Below, piece by piece: positions 6,725 to 21,643 of a stretch of 22,315 nucleotides of DNA (the first letter of the stretch is position 1; each line of letters starts with the position of its first letter). The notes below the pieces were generated by a model that saw only the letters and a program-made list of their open reading frames with translations, was not told the origin of the DNA and searched no databases. Source of the DNA: a virus; the IMG/VR virus record IMGVR_UViG_3300030108_002460, positions 3,671 to 25,985 of that record, one strand, 5' to 3'. Position numbers and translations under genes: made by a program.

Positions 6725-7942
6725 ATGTTATTTCAGACACTAGACGATAAGAGACAATGCGTTGGTATTTATTTTGACAGCGAATTGTATTTTGATTTAG
6801 ATGACTTCCCGCAAGATCTGACCAGAAGCTGGAGATACACCCCATTCATGCAAGGGTATAGGGGGGTAGAATATGCAGAGATATATGCGCTAGGTAAAAC
6901 TATTGATGAGTGCTGCCCAGACCACCTACGAGATGATTGGGAACTGGCACAGCAACGCATCAAGGCTTTCATCAAAGCTAATAGAACTGCTGGCTTATCC
7001 TCCTCCGCTTATTGTATGTTTGACATGATACCACCCACCTTTCTAAAGCAATTCTGTCATGCGAAAAACCTTATCAGCGACTGGGTGATATCAAGCTACA
7101 AAAAGCCAATCAACTACAGGCACCTGTTAGCCACAACAGAGATGCTACGGGACATAGAGCACTACGATGTTCAGATTGATGATGATATATTGCAGTCTAA
7201 AGCTGATGATCCATCTGCTAGAGTGTTGCTTGAAAAGGTTAGCAATCGTAAAACAAAAGTAAAATATAATCTCTTTACCACCAGAACAGGACGCCTGGCA
7301 ACGACTAAGCGATCATTTCCCCTGTTTACTCTTAAGAAAGAGCACAGAGATGTGATAACCCCTAAGAACGATATGTTGGTAGAATTAGATTTTAACGGAG
7401 CAGAATTAAGAACACTACTGGCCTTGTCGGGTAAGGTTCAACCTGATGGCGACGTCCATGACTGGAATGTACACAATGTATTTAATGATCGTGTTAGTAG
7501 AGAGGATGCAAAGGTGCTGTTCTTCTCTTGGTTATATGGATCAAGGTCTGATGATTTGAAAGAGTGGTCTAGACCGCTTGGATTGGCTTATGAAACCAGG
7601 CAACTTAAAAGAAAGTATTTTGATGATGGGTTAGTACTAACTCCACATGGCAGAAAGCTTGAATGCAGTGATCGTCTTTTTGTCAACTACTTGATACAAT
7701 CTACAACTGCTGATCTATGTTATGAGCAATTTGTAAAAGTATGGTCTATGTTGCGGAACAAGTCTAGTGAAGTTGCCTTTGTTTTACATGATGCTGTTGT
7801 CATTGACCTAAAACTAGAGGATAAAGATTTAATAGAGCAGATGGCAAAAGTTATGAGCCAGACTCGTTTTGGTAAATTTTCAGTCAATGTTAGCATAGGT
7901 AAAAACTTTAAAGATATGAGGAAGACTAAAATAAGTGTTTAG
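6725..7942 (+). CDS. Short family A DNA polymerase without exonuclease domains
   Basis: 405 residues, about the size of a Pol I polymerase domain with a ~150-residue novel N-terminus. Family A motifs appear in order: TGRL (188-191); motif A with LDFNGAELR and Asp222; a DVHDWNVHNVF segment (243-253); motif B with Arg259, Lys263, Phe267 and Tyr271 in the exact spacing of E. coli Arg754, Lys758, Phe762 and Tyr766; a NYLIQSTTAD helix (321-330); and motif C with His355-Asp356. The usual motif C Glu after that Asp is Ala357. No 5' nuclease or 3'-5' exonuclease motif is visible in the N-terminus. It would extend primers or fill gaps during phage replication. The gene opens the replication module and overlaps the next gene by 8 bp. 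The family is clear; activity depends on whether the changed motif C is tolerated. Confidence 0.88.
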   Translation: MLFQTLDDKRQCVGIYFDSELYFDLDDFPQDLTRSWRYTPFMQGYRGVEYAEIYALGKTIDECCPDHLRDDWELAQQRIKAFIKANRTAGLSSSAYCMFDMIPPTFLKQFCHAKNLISDWVISSYKKPINYRHLLATTEMLRDIEHYDVQIDDDILQSKADDPSARVLLEKVSNRKTKVKYNLFTTRTGRLATTKRSFPLFTLKKEHRDVITPKNDMLVELDFNGAELRTLLALSGKVQPDGDVHDWNVHNVFNDRVSREDAKVLFFSWLYGSRSDDLKEWSRPLGLAYETRQLKRKYFDDGLVLTPHGRKLECSDRLFVNYLIQSTTADLCYEQFVKVWSMLRNKSSEVAFVLHDAVVIDLKLEDKDLIEQMAKVMSQTRFGKFSVNVSIGKNFKDMRKTKISV

Positions 7943-16735: not shown

Positions 16736-16989
16736 GGCCAGTAAACAGACGATTACTCGTAGAATTATTTGAGGAAGAAGAAGAGAGTCCACTTTTTATT
16801 CTACCTGAAGACTTCCAGGAAAAATCTCATAGATCGTACAAGGTACTAGCCACGGCAAGGGATTGCAGTATGGATCTAAAAGTAGGAGAGGTTGTTATTG
16901 CTCACACTTCAGACCCAGAAACAATTACCTTTGAAGGCAAAGAACACTTGTTATTGTTAGAGAATCATGTTGTCTGTGTGGTTGATTAG
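16732..16989 (+). CDS. GroES-like co-chaperonin (gp31-type)
   Basis: 85 residues from ATG 16732, chosen over an upstream in-frame TTG (16717) because AAGGAG sits 5 bases before it and because it makes an ATGA overlap. The fold signature is that of GroES: RPVNRRLLVELFE at the start (GroES has IRPLHDRVIVKR), a short loop carrying a hydrophobic LFILPE where GroES has its GroEL-binding Ile-Val-Leu, a YKVLATA strand (GroES GEVLAVG), LKVGEVVIAHTSD (GroES VKVGDIVIFND) and LLLLENHVVCVVD at the end (GroES VLIMSESDILAIVE). The loop before LFILPE is a run of acidic residues. By analogy with T4 gp31 it would replace host GroES on GroEL to fold a phage protein. No GroEL is in view. Confidence 0.75.
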   Translation: MRPVNRRLLVELFEEEEESPLFILPEDFQEKSHRSYKVLATARDCSMDLKVGEVVIAHTSDPETITFEGKEHLLLLENHVVCVVD

Positions 16990-18254
16990 TTACCGATACA
17001 CAGATCCTGGAAGATATTTTTGATCTGCAAAAACACCGTTTCTGAATTTGCAGTTGGTGTGTAGAGCCTGTCTCTTTCACCCCGCACACAATTTATAAAT
17101 GTGTTATGATGTTGCTCAAGGGCGAAAACAAATAGTTCAAACCCTAAAGTGTTTGATAACTCGCCAACTTCAAAACAAGTCATTGGGTGGGAATACATTG
17201 TCTGTGCTTCTTCATCAGTCATTGTTATAATAACTTTCTGTGCGTCTGGCCGCCAGGAAAATGGATAGGTGTTCATTGACCAGTACATCGTGTCTATTGT
17301 TGGTTCTTGACCAGCACTGTCAATCATTCTACCAGCCTCTATCACATCAAGAAACTCGTCAGCATAGACAAAATCAGACACCATCCTAGCGAGATGGTAT
17401 TCTGGTCTTAGATCTGATCCTGCCCTAGCACCAACAACAACTAATCCAAAACGAAATGTACTTGTAATCGGGTCTTCTAAAAGAGGGGCTATACCTTGGA
17501 TCATAGAGTCAATCTCATCTCGGAAAGAACCAGATATATCTAAAACAAATACTAGGTCTACACCACGACTATCAAAGCCCTCATCCACTTCGCCATCACA
17601 ATCATTATCTAGATTATCGCATCGCTCAATAACTGGTAAAACTTGACCATCACAAGGACCACCAAAGTCTCCATCCGTACAATAACGGACACCTGCTCGG
17701 CACTCACCGACAGCGAGCGTGCCCTCTGGACCCTCATAACACACAACAGCAGTTGCACCGACTATCCCTTCGTCAGCCGTGCCATTGCAATTATTATCAA
17801 TTCCATCACAGGTTTCTTCAGTTGGTCCAACATGGCCATCACAATATAATCCACCATTGTCACACTTCATTACACCTGGCGTACATATGCCTACACCATA
17901 GTCCACGTTTTCTTGGAACCCACACAGTTGGTGTTCTTCTGGGTATGTTTCATCAATAGCTGCATCGCAGTCATTATCTATGCCATCGCAAATTTCTTCA
18001 CTTGATCCCCTCGCACCCACACATTCTGACCACCCGTTAAGTGTGCAGGTTCTTAATCCATAGGAGCATTGCCCTGCTCTTTGGGGTATATCAACTGGAT
18101 CTGCATTAGGGAAGTCTTGATCAAGTTCATCGCAAACAATTTGTTCGCCTGGGACACACTCCAGCCTCACTAGATCTTCGTCTGATGAACAACCGCTGAA
18201 TAGCGAGGCAACACATAATAATAATGCTATTTTGTTCTTACTTGTTCTAAACAT
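16986..18254 (-). CDS. Lipoprotein with MopE-type Cys/Asp repeats and a VWA domain
   Basis: 422 residues. The N-terminus is a lipoprotein signal: basic start, hydrophobic core, and a LFSGC box with Cys22. Three copies of a C-D-x-x-D-N-x-C-x-x-x-x-D-E motif (residues 89-102, 149-162, 212-225) match the metal-binding repeats named after MopE, and Cys-rich spacers probably form disulfides. A von Willebrand A domain follows (about 232-420) with the MIDAS Asp239-x-Ser241-x-Ser243 and a later TMTDEE with Asp347. The protein would sit on the outer membrane, periplasmic or surface side, and bind metal and a ligand. Such proteins are known mainly from bacterial genomes, notably myxobacteria-like groups, so capture from a host is likely. 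It is the last gene of a three-gene minus-strand unit and its stop overlaps the co-chaperonin stop by 4 bp. Confidence 0.85.
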   Translation of the reverse strand: MFRTSKNKIALLLCVASLFSGCSSDEDLVRLECVPGEQIVCDELDQDFPNADPVDIPQRAGQCSYGLRTCTLNGWSECVGARGSSEEICDGIDNDCDAAIDETYPEEHQLCGFQENVDYGVGICTPGVMKCDNGGLYCDGHVGPTEETCDGIDNNCNGTADEGIVGATAVVCYEGPEGTLAVGECRAGVRYCTDGDFGGPCDGQVLPVIERCDNLDNDCDGEVDEGFDSRGVDLVFVLDISGSFRDEIDSMIQGIAPLLEDPITSTFRFGLVVVGARAGSDLRPEYHLARMVSDFVYADEFLDVIEAGRMIDSAGQEPTIDTMYWSMNTYPFSWRPDAQKVIITMTDEEAQTMYSHPMTCFEVGELSNTLGFELFVFALEQHHNTFINCVRGERDRLYTPTANSETVFLQIKNIFQDLCIGN

Positions 18255-18682
18255 TCTTCTCTGCTACTAAACATGTGTATGGACAACACATCGCTACCAA
18301 GCCAGGTGAATTTTGCCTTTTGAAGTGGCAAGCTGCTTGGTACTGCTGCTGATAATACAATAGGGACAGAGGACATACTAGGTAAATTGAAAGCCATAAG
18401 AAGTTCGTTAGATTTAGAAACTTGTATAACTCCTGGCAAAGCTCCTGCTTTAGTAGCGCTAGGTATACCTATTACCATGCGTGTTATGGAGTTTGGTTCC
18501 TTCTGTAAGATATCAAGTGTTTGTAATATCCACAAACAATTACTTTTTTGCCCCGCAAGGTAGTAAACGCTTTGCTTTGGGATGACTACTTCTATTTTTG
18601 GTTCAGCGTTAGCCATGATGTATATCACGGCAGTTGAGATGGCGGCCATTGCCACTAAGAGAATGTTGTATTTCTTAAACAT
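18227..18682 (-). CDS. Unknown exported or membrane-anchored protein
   Basis: 151 residues. A basic MFKK start is followed by a hydrophobic stretch (about 7-24) ending ANA before EPK, which can be read as a cleavable signal peptide or an N-terminal anchor. The rest is soluble with alternating hydrophobic strands and two cysteines (49 and 144) that could pair in the periplasm. Its 3' end overlaps the start of the VWA lipoprotein gene by 28 bp, and it begins 15 bp after the upstream gene, so the three are one transcription unit. I do not recognise a family. A partner role with the VWA lipoprotein is inferred from coupling only. Confidence 0.6.
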   Translation of the reverse strand: MFKKYNILLVAMAAISTAVIYIMANAEPKIEVVIPKQSVYYLAGQKSNCLWILQTLDILQKEPNSITRMVIGIPSATKAGALPGVIQVSKSNELLMAFNLPSMSSVPIVLSAAVPSSLPLQKAKFTWLGSDVLSIHMFSSREECLEQVRTK

Positions 18683-18697
18683 CCAGATACTGCAAAC

Positions 18698-18982
18698 TTA
18701 TTTACCACTATAGGTTATAAATGGTAATTTAGTTATCTCCTCTCGTAAAGGCTTGGACTTCTCTATATTCAAAAGAGACTTACCCTTTACAAGAGTAACT
18801 AGTATTTGGTTTTGAATCTTTATATCTTGTTCGGTGTATTGCCAGCCACCTCTGGTTTCTTCTTTCCAAACTTCCATGATAGCTTGCTTACCAGCATCAG
18901 CGGGTCCAGCGTCGTTTGCGAGTGTATTTATGGGGGTTAGGAGAAGTAAATAAAAACTAAATAAAACACTTTTGTAATTCAT
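18698..18982 (-). CDS. Small secreted protein
   Basis: 94 residues with a clear signal peptide: a short Lys-containing start, a hydrophobic core to about residue 20, and a cleavage-like TLA site before NDAG. The mature ~70 residues are soluble and charged, with WKEETRGGWQYTEQD in the middle, and contain no cysteine. It is first in the minus-strand unit, with a promoter immediately upstream. I do not recognise the family; a periplasmic location is the only supported statement. Confidence 0.55.
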   Translation of the reverse strand: MNYKSVLFSFYLLLLTPINTLANDAGPADAGKQAIMEVWKEETRGGWQYTEQDIKIQNQILVTLVKGKSLLNIEKSKPLREEITKLPFITYSGK

Positions 18983-19074
18983 AACTTATTATATTCCTAG
19001 TCTAATTTTCAAGCAATAGCTCAAAATCACCTGTAACTAGTAAACAAAACCCTAAAAAGCCTCATATTTAAAGT
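18983..19074. other. Divergent intergenic region
   Basis: 92 bp between the minus-strand cassette and the plus-strand protease. It holds the minus-strand promoter. No convincing plus-strand promoter or ribosome binding site is seen before the ATG at 19075, so a weak or regulated promoter is likely there. Confidence 0.5.
18988..19016 (-). promoter_or_regulatory. Sigma-70-like promoter for the minus-strand cassette
   Basis: Read on the minus strand: TTGCTT (19016-19011), a 17-bp spacer, and TATAAT (18993-18988). The -10 lies only 5 bases before the ATG (18982-18980), so the predicted transcript would have almost no leader. An AGGA in the spacer region is too far upstream to serve such a transcript. 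Confidence 0.5.
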
Positions 19075-19938
19075 ATGAACACTAAGAAAACATTTCGTAA
19101 TCTGGTTTACTTCTTAATTTTGTTGCAAGTTGGATGTTCCACAACAATATCTAATAATAACAAAGCAGTTTCTAGTGTTGCGGGCTTGCCTGTCAGCCAA
19201 AGTATGCCAAAAGAGTCTTTCTTTAAATTTCAAGTGGCTCAAGCCGTTGAGGCATGTTTGCACTACGAAGATAAGAAAGATGAATGCACTGTTGGTGTCG
19301 TTCGGCATACGTCATCAGGAGCTTTTGTAGGTAGGAGCGAAGTCAGGAAAGATGTAGCATATGGTCTAACAGCAGGACACTCTTGCCAGGATAAATTTGC
19401 TAAGAAGTCTAACAAGGATATTAGCTTCAAGGTAGTCTCGGCAGATTATCTTGCACTTATGTTCAATGGCAAACTAAGAAGGGCAGAAATTATTTCATAT
19501 GATACAAAGTCAGACTTATGTCTACTTCGTGTGTATGGTTTCAACAATAACAGGCCTGCCCCACTAAAAATCGCAGATAAATTTCCTAAGTGGGGAGAGA
19601 AGGTGTATAACATGGCAGCACCACGAGGAATATTTAGCCCAGGGATGTTGTTAATGTTTGACGGATACTACGCTGGGATAGGGTTTGACAACTACATGTT
19701 CTTTTCATTGCCAACCAAGCCAGGGTCCAGTGGTTCACCAATATTAAATGCAAAGAAGGAATTGGTATCCATGATATTTGCTGGGTTTCCTGCAATGGAA
19801 AATATTGGACTTGGATCAAACCTAACAGCTATAAGAAGCTTTGTAACAAATAAAGTTGCGCTGTCGGAGGCTGACCTATGGGCAAAAAAGAATTTGAATA
19901 AAGATAGAACTGAAACTACCACAACAGAGGGCAGGTAG
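19075..19938 (+). CDS. Trypsin-like serine protease, lipoprotein-type signal
   Basis: 287 residues. The N-terminus (basic MNTKK, hydrophobic core, LLQVGC with Cys21) looks like a lipoprotein signal, although Gln at the -3 position is unusual. The chymotrypsin-fold triad is complete: His102 in LTAGHSC, Asp147 in DTKSDLCLLRV, and Ser219 in PGSSGSP. No PDZ domain follows; the chain ends ~50 residues after the Ser strand region in a polar Thr-rich tail. The family resembles the protease half of DegS/HtrA, and the membrane anchor would place it in the periplasm. It begins a plus-strand trio ending in a site-2 protease, with the next gene 6 bp away. It could be a site-1 protease for that cascade, or it could degrade envelope proteins. 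Confidence 0.82.
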   Translation: MNTKKTFRNLVYFLILLQVGCSTTISNNNKAVSSVAGLPVSQSMPKESFFKFQVAQAVEACLHYEDKKDECTVGVVRHTSSGAFVGRSEVRKDVAYGLTAGHSCQDKFAKKSNKDISFKVVSADYLALMFNGKLRRAEIISYDTKSDLCLLRVYGFNNNRPAPLKIADKFPKWGEKVYNMAAPRGIFSPGMLLMFDGYYAGIGFDNYMFFSLPTKPGSSGSPILNAKKELVSMIFAGFPAMENIGLGSNLTAIRSFVTNKVALSEADLWAKKNLNKDRTETTTTEGR

Positions 19939-19944
19939 ATTGCC

Positions 19945-20433
19945 ATGGACAGAGAAAGAGAAGCCTGGCAGAACATGAGAGACAGTGCTTACGAGACGAT
20001 CAGCGACTCGCAGGTATATGAATATGATCTCTTCCCCATCAAGGAGGCCAAGCCAAACTATCTTTCAGCATTTGTTTGGACAACTTTAGTTGCAGCAATG
20101 GTCTGCGCAATATATACGGGCTTCTTGCTGTACTTGTTTAATAGTAGTGGACTAGAAGATAATCTTAGGAAAGCTACTAACCATGCGATCATTAATTTAG
20201 AGCGAGTCATAGAACTACAGAACAAAGAGATATCAGCGCTCAAAACCGAAAACAAAAAGATATATGACTATCTGCAACTCTGGACACCGCTTGATGTTCA
20301 AAAGTATCGTCGGCAACAAGAAAATAAATATAAGCCACCTACAGAGGAAGATGTGTGGAACTTAGGTCCAGATATACCAATCAATAGATACAACCTCTGT
20401 GATGAGGAGCGATTACTATGGTCTTGCTATTAG
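19945..20433 (+). CDS. Single-span membrane protein with coiled coil
   Basis: 162 residues. Residues 1-38 are polar and lack a signal peptide; one membrane span lies at about 42-66; residues ~70-110 form a heptad-like coiled coil (LEDNLRK, then IELQNKEISALKTEN), and the end is polar with two cysteines. Short N-terminal cytoplasmic segment, one span and a larger periplasmic part is the topology of RseA-type regulated intramembrane proteolysis substrates. The gene sits exactly between a trypsin-like protease and a site-2 protease and overlaps the latter by 16 bp. It is not recognisably RseA. An inner-membrane spanin is an alternative, but those usually have the span at the extreme N-terminus. 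Confidence 0.6.
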   Translation: MDREREAWQNMRDSAYETISDSQVYEYDLFPIKEAKPNYLSAFVWTTLVAAMVCAIYTGFLLYLFNSSGLEDNLRKATNHAIINLERVIELQNKEISALKTENKKIYDYLQLWTPLDVQKYRRQQENKYKPPTEEDVWNLGPDIPINRYNLCDEERLLWSCY

Positions 20434-21218
20434 CAATTATAATAGGTTTAATATTCATTCATGAGCTAGGTCACTATGTCGCTGGGCGTCTTAGTGGTTT
20501 TGGCATAGAGGAATTTGCAATTGGTTTTGGTAAAGAACTTGCCAGCTTCAATGCACTAGGGAACAAGTGGTCTTTTAGACTTATACCACTTGGTGGTTAT
20601 GTTCGTTTTGAGGGCGAGGCAGACTATGATAATGTTCTTCAGAGTAAAACATCTTTTTGGGGTAAGCATCCATTACAAAGATTATTTGTTGCGCTTGCGG
20701 GACCAGCAGCAAATTTACTTTTGCCTTACGCTTTGTTCTTTGTGTATTTCCATGGTATGCCCTGGCCAGATGTGAAAGCCCCTGATGGTTCTGAGGTTGG
20801 TAAAATCAGTGCTTACTGGGCTGCCAAGGCCAGCATAAACACAACCAATAATTTATACGCTAGTATAGGAGAAGCTGTCAGCCAGCTAGGTGATCGTGGC
20901 ATAAAAGCAACTGATGTCGGTGGACCAGTGGCGATGTATGATATGACGGAGCAGGCTAGGAAACAATCGTCCTCCACTAAAGACAATGGCTTTTTATATC
21001 AGTGGATCGCATTCCTTAGTATTAATATTGGGTTCATGAATTTATTACCAATACCTTTACTAGATGGAGGACATGTGGTAATATCAATTGTAGAAACAGT
21101 AATCGGTAGAAATATAAAACGTAGAACAAGAAACATATTAACTTATGTAGGGTTAGCGATTGTCGGTCTTATAATGTGTTTGGCTATCTTCTCTGATGTA
21201 GGCAGACTGTTTTCTTAA
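20418..21218 (+). CDS. rseP: RseP-like site-2 protease (M50) lacking PDZ domains
   Basis: 266 residues against ~450 for E. coli RseP. The first span carries HELGH (15-19), the zinc site with Glu16 catalytic. It is followed by GFGKEL, LIPLGGYV and ALAGPAAN, all matching RseP in order. The C-terminal half has VGGPVAM, then SINIGFMNLLPIPLLDGGH with Asn208 and Asp216 (third zinc ligand), then a last span ending IFSDVGRLF; RseP has the same sequence pattern. Where RseP has two PDZ domains there are only ~65 residues here, so the PDZ pair is missing. Site-2 proteases cut single-span membrane proteins after a first cut, as RseP does to RseA and to spent signal peptides. It overlaps the upstream membrane protein gene by 16 bp and has GAGGAG 8 bases before the ATG. 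Confidence 0.9.
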   Translation: MVLLLAIIIGLIFIHELGHYVAGRLSGFGIEEFAIGFGKELASFNALGNKWSFRLIPLGGYVRFEGEADYDNVLQSKTSFWGKHPLQRLFVALAGPAANLLLPYALFFVYFHGMPWPDVKAPDGSEVGKISAYWAAKASINTTNNLYASIGEAVSQLGDRGIKATDVGGPVAMYDMTEQARKQSSSTKDNGFLYQWIAFLSINIGFMNLLPIPLLDGGHVVISIVETVIGRNIKRRTRNILTYVGLAIVGLIMCLAIFSDVGRLFS

Positions 21219-21252: not shown

Positions 21253-21618
21253 ATGTCCGAAGCCAAAAGTAAAACAGAAAACAAGGAAGAGGTTACTGAT
21301 GATCTAATTCCAAAACCCCCACCAAAACTTGCCCCACGAGGCATCACAAGTTTCACGGTCTATAGAACTCAGGATGAAACAGGTGTATCAGGAGAAGGGG
21401 TTGTTATTGAAGGCGTCGTTATGGCGACAGGACAATGTGTTGTCCACTGGCTTTACCCACCACCCCGTGGAGGTATTGCTATATTTGATAGTATGAGTGA
21501 TTTTGTAAAGGTTCACATTGAACCACACCCAGCCAATCAAACTATCATCACTTATCAGGATGGACATAAAGATGTCTATGGCAAGAAGCCACAAGAAAAT
21601 TCTGAAGAAGATACTTGA
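21253..21618 (+). CDS. Small protein of a recurring phage/bacterial unknown family
   Basis: 121 residues. The core has the pattern SGEGVVIEGVVMATGQCVVHW, then a short loop and IAIFDSMSDFVKVH, a small beta fold that I have the impression of seeing in many phage proteins of unknown role (SGTGVVAEGV and similar). The N-terminal ~30 residues are charged and Pro-rich, and the last ~15 are acidic. No signal peptide or membrane span. A strong AGGAGG lies 8 bases before the ATG. It separates the envelope genes from dnaE, and the dnaE promoter -35 overlaps its stop codon. Function unknown. Confidence 0.6.
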   Translation: MSEAKSKTENKEEVTDDLIPKPPPKLAPRGITSFTVYRTQDETGVSGEGVVIEGVVMATGQCVVHWLYPPPRGGIAIFDSMSDFVKVHIEPHPANQTIITYQDGHKDVYGKKPQENSEEDT

Positions 21619-21643
21619 CACAAAGTATAAAGTAAATTATAAT
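21615..21643 (+). promoter_or_regulatory. Consensus sigma-70 promoter for dnaE
   Basis: A perfect TTGACA (21615-21620) and TATAAT (21638-21643) separated by 17 bp. Transcription would start near 21650, with AGAAAGG (21656-21662) before the ATG at 21672. The -35 overlaps the stop codon of the preceding gene. Confidence 0.8.

Follow-up and report, generated by a model that had tools for sequence, protein, structure and literature searches.

Uncultured T4-like phages carry a PDZ-less RseP-type protease together with a coupled membrane protein and an exported serine protease

Introduction

Do some phages carry their own set of genes for regulated intramembrane proteolysis (RIP)? This question is raised by three adjacent plus-strand genes found in a stretch of 22,315 nucleotides (hereafter the window), which belongs to an IMG/VR virus record of 28,843 bases. 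An earlier note on this DNA had read these genes as a site-1 protease, its membrane substrate and a site-2 protease, arranged as in the DegS-RseA-RseP system, and its author knew of no described phage system of this kind. A search of the open-access literature bears out this last point: intramembrane proteolysis is established for bacteria, archaea and eukaryotes alike, and neither a phage encoding such a set nor a paper on a phage-encoded site-2 protease or on phage RIP was found there. If working, the set would offer a phage a new means of acting on the envelope of its host during late infection.

A conserved gene set in an uncultured phage group

According to the ORF calls, the first gene (S1P, 19075..19938, 287 aa), the second (MID, 19945..20433, 162 aa) and the third (S2P, 20418..21218, 266 aa) all lie on the plus strand, with a 6-bp gap between S1P and MID and a 16-bp overlap of the MID end with the S2P start (20418..20433, plus strand), exactly as previously described. 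The two protease families recognized in the earlier note were also recovered by Pfam searches, S1P being assigned to Trypsin_2 (PF13365, E 8.6e-11) and S2P to Peptidase_M50 (PF02163, E 2.8e-53). The catalytic residues are indeed intact and, moreover, are kept in essentially all distinct relatives. They comprise His102 (codon 19378-19380), Asp147 (19513-19515) and Ser219 (19729-19731) of S1P, a triad invariant in two alignments, and the HELGH (20460-20474) and LDGGH (21060-21074) motifs of S2P, all encoded on the plus strand.

Each of the three genes was found again in several independent metagenome contigs, so the gene set is not a chance arrangement. Since the same genes are found amid tail, capsid and replication genes in many independent contigs, bacterial contamination or misassembly was ruled out. 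Comparison of the window with the related locus L003 revealed purifying selection, with dN/dS values of 0.05 for S1P and 0.10 for MID and no amino-acid change at all in S2P.

The phages carrying the set belong to an uncultured T4-like group. In one of them, G001, the terminase is 41-44% identical to those of Microcystis phage Mel-JY01, Flavobacterium phage immuto and similar phages, and more distantly similar to those of many T4-like phages. A search of 50,697 phage records gave no match for MID (by tblastn), S1P or N1, a neighbour of S1P described below, so that neither a host nor a cultured member of the group is known. The possibility of an already known phage system was rejected; the S2P matches in this set appear to be RseP genes of hosts in records labelled as phage. 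An anti-phage defence family was also set aside, as S1P gave only weak protease-domain matches, to Avs1b and PDC-M35A, and the other proteins gave none. A perfect match to a sigma-70-type promoter (TTGACA-17-TATAAT) lies at positions 21615-21643 of the window, directly ahead of a DNA polymerase III alpha gene; near the gene set, such promoters show no excess over shuffled sequence.

S2P is an RseP-type protease without PDZ domains

S2P scored 186 bits against the NCBIfam RseP model TIGR00054, above the cut-off of 147.55, and its structure model (mean pLDDT 89.6) matched RseP and RasP in Foldseek with E-values of 1e-15 to 3e-13 and TMq of 0.79-0.80 (0.80 for RseP), the TMt being about 0.5 (0.49 for RseP). 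M50B intramembrane proteases are characterized by HExxH in their first membrane helix and by (L/N)DG in a later one, and S2P has HELGH and LDGGH. The HExxH motif is present in 23/23 distinct phage relatives and LDGG in 22, the remaining one being truncated. The alignment of S2P to E. coli RseP skips RseP residues 127-318, which correspond to both PDZ domains. Group I proteases have one or more PDZ domains in the periplasmic part that follows membrane helix 2 and precedes helix 3; S2P has none, and the spacing from HExxH to LDGG is 187-202 residues in the phage proteins versus 270 or more in the bacterial relatives that were retrieved. In the S2P tree, these phage proteins are grouped in a single clade (100/100) with a long stem, and no close bacterial donor was found in a bacterial sample composed of best pattern matches only.

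In E. coli, full-length RseA is kept away from RseP by the PDZ tandem until its cleavage by DegS, a requirement from which PDZ mutants are freed (PMC7728848, PMC10202637). Since this size filter is missing in S2P, the phage protease would not be expected to need a site-1 cleavage. If it works, S2P would be a naturally occurring RseP devoid of the PDZ gate, and useful for testing the role of this gate.

Two further M50 proteases on contigs of uncultured phages are BFVD entries A0A6J5SMS1 ('Peptidase M50') and A0A6J5RHB6. In addition, in a second phage group (L047:5306-6103, L048 and L049), a QueE-like gene is immediately followed by one for a PDZ-less M50 protease. These proteases form a long, separate branch in the tree, neither MID nor S1P was found as their neighbour at the three loci, and a Trypsin_2 gene occurs, unlinked, on one of the three contigs.

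S1P belongs to an envelope module with N1, N2 and N3

Trypsin_2 is the only domain of S1P, a PDZ domain giving no match in the family search. A lipobox-like signal ends at Cys21, and an equivalent Cys is present in most relatives; by this motif, S1P looks like a lipoprotein, with predicted lipidation. The earlier description of S1P as an anchored protease is thus retained in the form of a probable lipid anchor rather than a DegS-type membrane helix. More generally, the membrane helix, trypsin fold and PDZ domain that together mark proteases of the DegS/HtrA kind were not found combined in S1P.

A divergent intergenic region of 92 bp (18983..19074) separates S1P from three minus-strand genes, all of them its invariant neighbours. 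N3 (18698..18982), which is divergent from S1P, encodes a small exported protein, and N2 (18227..18682) encodes an N-terminal membrane anchor or signal followed by an exported domain of ~125 residues, with no match in the family searches. The product of N1 (16986..18254) is a lipoprotein with a lipobox, Cys-rich MopE-type repeats (Pfam MopE, E 4.4e-11) and a VWA domain (E 3.1e-5). S1P, N1, N2 and N3 are all predicted to be exported. This N1-N2-N3/S1P arrangement is almost invariant across about 50 loci: wherever the flanks of an S1P locus could be used, S1P is divergent from N3-N2-N1, the sole exception being the very divergent L234.

The N1-N2-N3 envelope module (16986-18982 in the window) is, with S1P, among the most constant neighbourhoods of this phage group. 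In the exceptional locus (L234/L243), which carries a divergent S1P relative, N1-N3 are absent, and neither MID nor S2P was found on the contig concerned (G037, 235,672 bases).

MID is a predicted single-span membrane protein

MID is composed of a predicted cytoplasmic head (residues 1-38, 19945..20058), a transmembrane helix (residues 39-67, 20059..20145), located by AlphaFold and by the hydropathy of the G001 relative, and a periplasmic coiled coil (residues 70-113, 20152..20283, from AlphaFold) that leads to a conserved W-x-P motif, all three being encoded on the plus strand. The AlphaFold model (mean pLDDT 70.7), which also has a head helix (residues 3-20) and a low-confidence tail, therefore agrees with the single-span, coiled-coil protein of the earlier description. 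An N-in/C-out orientation is predicted from the long hydrophilic N terminus, and the flanking charge supports it in the relatives, though not clearly in the window protein. The M-x-R-E-R start of the head and Asn38-Tyr39 are conserved in clades A and B of the S2P tree (see below), and four residues of the transmembrane helix (W45, T46, C54 and G59) are invariant.

Neither Pfam nor further family searches returned a family above cut-off for MID, and no anti-sigma domain was recognized, the head being only ~38 aa long and matching no family. Moreover, the divergent MID of clade C (L241, on contig G038) has only ~14 residues ahead of its membrane helix, which weakens the previous proposal that a released head signals; the S2P of G012, for which no recognisable MID was found, weakens it further. 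On the same contig, an M23 (LytM)-like peptidase gene with a signal peptide (L241:8307-8873) is located about 1.4 kb downstream of this short-headed MID. The MID C-terminus CLPFLE was considered as a functional tail and set aside; its conservation was discounted because the DNA encoding it overlaps the S2P start. On two short contigs, L064 and L067, MID is not accompanied by S2P but followed by a phytanoyl-CoA-dioxygenase-like gene (assigned by sequence reading) and then by DNA polymerase III alpha (L064:337-1663, L067:10001-11362).

Gene order and a promoter-like element point to two probably linked modules

Profile scans of IMG/VR detected S2P at 31 loci, MID at 28 and S1P at 56, these sets overlapping in part; nearly all contigs are incomplete fragments, and absences from them weigh little. 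MID and S2P form a pair overlapping by 16-40 bp in 28 contigs, window included. An overlap in this range is kept in all contigs where the two genes are adjacent. An independent MID search returned nearly the same contigs as the S2P search. The overlap is likely to result in translational coupling of the two genes.

Three layouts were observed. In layout A (the window and L002-L012), N1-N2-N3 are divergent from S1P, which is followed by MID and S2P (N1<N2<N3< >S1P>MID>S2P). In layout B (G003, G011, G013 and G014), over 60 kb of sequence separates the S1P module from MID-S2P. In layout C (G012, L226, L227, L231 and L232), S2P stands tail-to-tail with N1, and MID is located elsewhere (G038, G050) or was not found. 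Layouts A and C each correspond to a supported clade of the S2P tree, and B lies inside a third. The S1P-MID-S2P order thus marks one lineage only, clade A. Conservation of this order in related phages, on which the earlier note had made its cassette depend, fails in clades B and C. What stands is a phage-encoded set with intact parts and a conserved MID-S2P pair; what falls is the three-gene order as a unit, since S1P-MID adjacency occurs in clade A only and a linkage of the DegS-RseA-RseP type was not found across the relatives.

In clade B, both modules are preceded by the same short element, CTA[GT]TTA[CT]T: in most contigs, the MID start codon is exactly 11 nt, and the S1P start exactly 14 nt, after the first base of the element. 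It also occurs on the coding strand ahead of scaffold, capsid, tail-sheath (all three assigned by sequence reading) and other genes in G001 (L083-L091), G011 (L245-L254) and G013 (L255-L263), where 13/14, 10/10 and 14/14 of its copies, respectively, lie on the main coding strand. Since the copy excess is small, only about 1.5-3x the order-2 Markov expectation, the case for this element rests on strand and position. From its position, we read it as a probable late promoter. The exact element was not found ahead of S1P or MID in clade A, window included.

S1P is present in 7/7 contigs longer than 125 kb that carry this S2P family, and MID in 6/7; within one phage group, the co-occurrence of S1P and S2P partly reflects common descent. 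S1P and S2P seem to be co-regulated. Because S1P accompanies S2P in all seven long contigs and the promoter-like element is common to both modules in clade B, a functional link between S1P and MID-S2P is likely.

A different explanation is that the two modules are unrelated, S1P processing or protecting N1-N3, MID-S2P acting separately and the layout of clade A being accidental. The near invariance of N1-N2-N3/S1P over about 50 loci, as compared with an S1P-MID adjacency confined to one clade, agrees with this explanation. Nevertheless, S2P adjoins the S1P module in two different layouts, via MID in clade A and tail-to-tail with N1 in clade C, one promoter-like element precedes both S1P and MID even at a distance of over 60 kb, and every long contig with S2P has S1P. 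We consider it rather unlikely that the modules have nothing to do with each other.

A recognisable MID was not found with the PDZ-less S2P in G012 (235 kb) or in the L047 phage group. This distant group, with a similar S2P and no MID, could suggest that S2P cleans up the membrane in general or works as an anti-toxin, removing residual signal peptides and small host proteins of the membrane, such as Hok-type toxins, with MID as an adaptor. In E. coli, HokB is among the small membrane proteins that RseP degrades, along with signal peptides (PMC10470546), and a PDZ-less form should accept more substrates. However, the coupling of MID and its conservation in 28 contigs, as well as the late-promoter-like element common with S1P, would be left unexplained, and such a role appears improbable.

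Comparison with known systems and proposed function

Similarly to DegS-RseA-RseP, the phage set includes an exported serine protease, a predicted single-span type II protein (MID) and an RseP-type S2P. Unlike in that system, the phage S2P has no PDZ tandem that could serve as a size filter, S1P is also devoid of PDZ and looks lipid-anchored, and MID has no anti-sigma domain. Furthermore, linkage of the S1P and MID genes is not maintained across the relatives, the invariant neighbours of S1P being N1-N3. These differences weaken the DegS-RseA-RseP logic proposed in the earlier note.

The SpoIVB-SpoIVFA-SpoIVFB set of the B. subtilis sigma-K checkpoint appears to be an equally good analogue, with its exported serine protease, a partner with an extracytoplasmic part and a PDZ-less S2P. 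SpoIVFB is controlled by membrane partners, among them SpoIVFA, which SpoIVB, a secreted serine protease, cleaves (PMC9042235). On the other hand, SpoIVFB belongs to another S2P group, characterized by a CBS domain, and its structure matches the phage S2P only weakly (8vjl, E 0.14); in addition, SpoIVB has a PDZ domain and S1P has none. By this analogy, MID would be a regulator that retains or gates S2P, S1P would clip the periplasmic part of MID to activate S2P, and the substrate would be some other phage or host membrane protein. S2P is devoid of PDZ, as is SpoIVFB (PMC10202637), and a tightly coupled, faster-evolving membrane partner suits a regulator as well as a substrate. However, S2P is of the RseP type by both sequence and fold, and it persists without a recognisable MID in G012 and the L047 group; a purely regulatory MID thus seems doubtful.

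The layout of MID, with its cytoplasmic head, one membrane helix and periplasmic coiled coil, is also FtsL-like, and in B. subtilis the S2P RasP cleaves FtsL. RasP differs from the phage S2P by the presence of a PDZ domain (PMC7728848). An assignment of MID to FtsL/DivIC itself was rejected, the matches being at noise level only.

The reading that we prefer, with a probability of roughly 0.38, is that MID is the dedicated partner and probable substrate of S2P, and that the periplasmic S1P acts on MID or on an N protein. Envelope proteolysis would then be performed by two separable modules, S1P with N1, N2 and N3, and MID with S2P, both acting in the host envelope, presumably late in infection. 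S2P would reside in the inner membrane, with MID as its membrane partner in the predicted topology. In the periplasm, S1P would clip MID or an N protein and thereby trigger or speed the cleavage by S2P, although prior action of S1P is probably not strictly needed by S2P. Control of S2P could then come from the bulk and coiled coil of MID or from late expression. MID being a predicted type II single-span protein supports its role as substrate, since the substrates of RseP are generally type II single-span proteins (PMC10470546).

It is conceivable, and put forward tentatively, that the whole amounts to a late, phage-made RIP, of a kind new to phages, in which S1P and S2P process MID and thereby set the timing of an event in the envelope or bring it about. 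The candidate events, proposed with the same reserve, are lysis, disruption of the outer membrane and control of superinfection. Within the preferred reading, six conserved genes (N1-N3, S1P, MID and S2P) gain a common, testable frame.

A possible relation of MID to spanins

MID resembles the i-spanins, such as lambda Rz and T4 PseT.3, in its predicted N-in/C-out topology, periplasmic coiled coil and late-promoter-like element. MID might thus be an i-spanin-type lysis protein, with S2P and S1P tuning or replacing outer-membrane disruption at lysis. The similarity to PHROG 739 ('Rz-like spanin') is weak but repeated, being detected for 8/9 members (best E 7e-5, and between 7e-5 and 0.01 in several of them) and for 0/9 segment-shuffled controls; other families that combine a membrane segment with a coiled coil nevertheless match MID at somewhat weaker levels. 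The N-in/C-out layout with a coiled coil is that of Rz (PMC6139136), the promoter-like element is found ahead of MID in clade B, and an M23 peptidase gene lies near MID in G038. In contrast to i-spanins, MID is coupled to an intramembrane protease gene, its cytoplasmic head is ~38 residues long in most members, and no o-spanin neighbour, in the form of a small lipobox ORF, was detected by a pattern scan near MID in the window, L005, L013 or L241. Moreover, the lysis genes could be others, namely g17-g19 of G001 (6800-7654), which encode small membrane proteins and have the late-promoter-like element. Taken together, a spanin function of MID seems improbable.

The genomes in which the promoter-like element was followed also contain runs of small genes, otherwise unrelated, whose products have a common start peptide, MKKLLTEWRKFLKE- or MKITKSQLRQIIKEE-. 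Such runs are located in L090-L091 (G001, 164-174 kb), L097 (G013) and L253-L254 (G011), with 5-8 of each start peptide per genome. These peptides could possibly represent a targeting or packaging tag.
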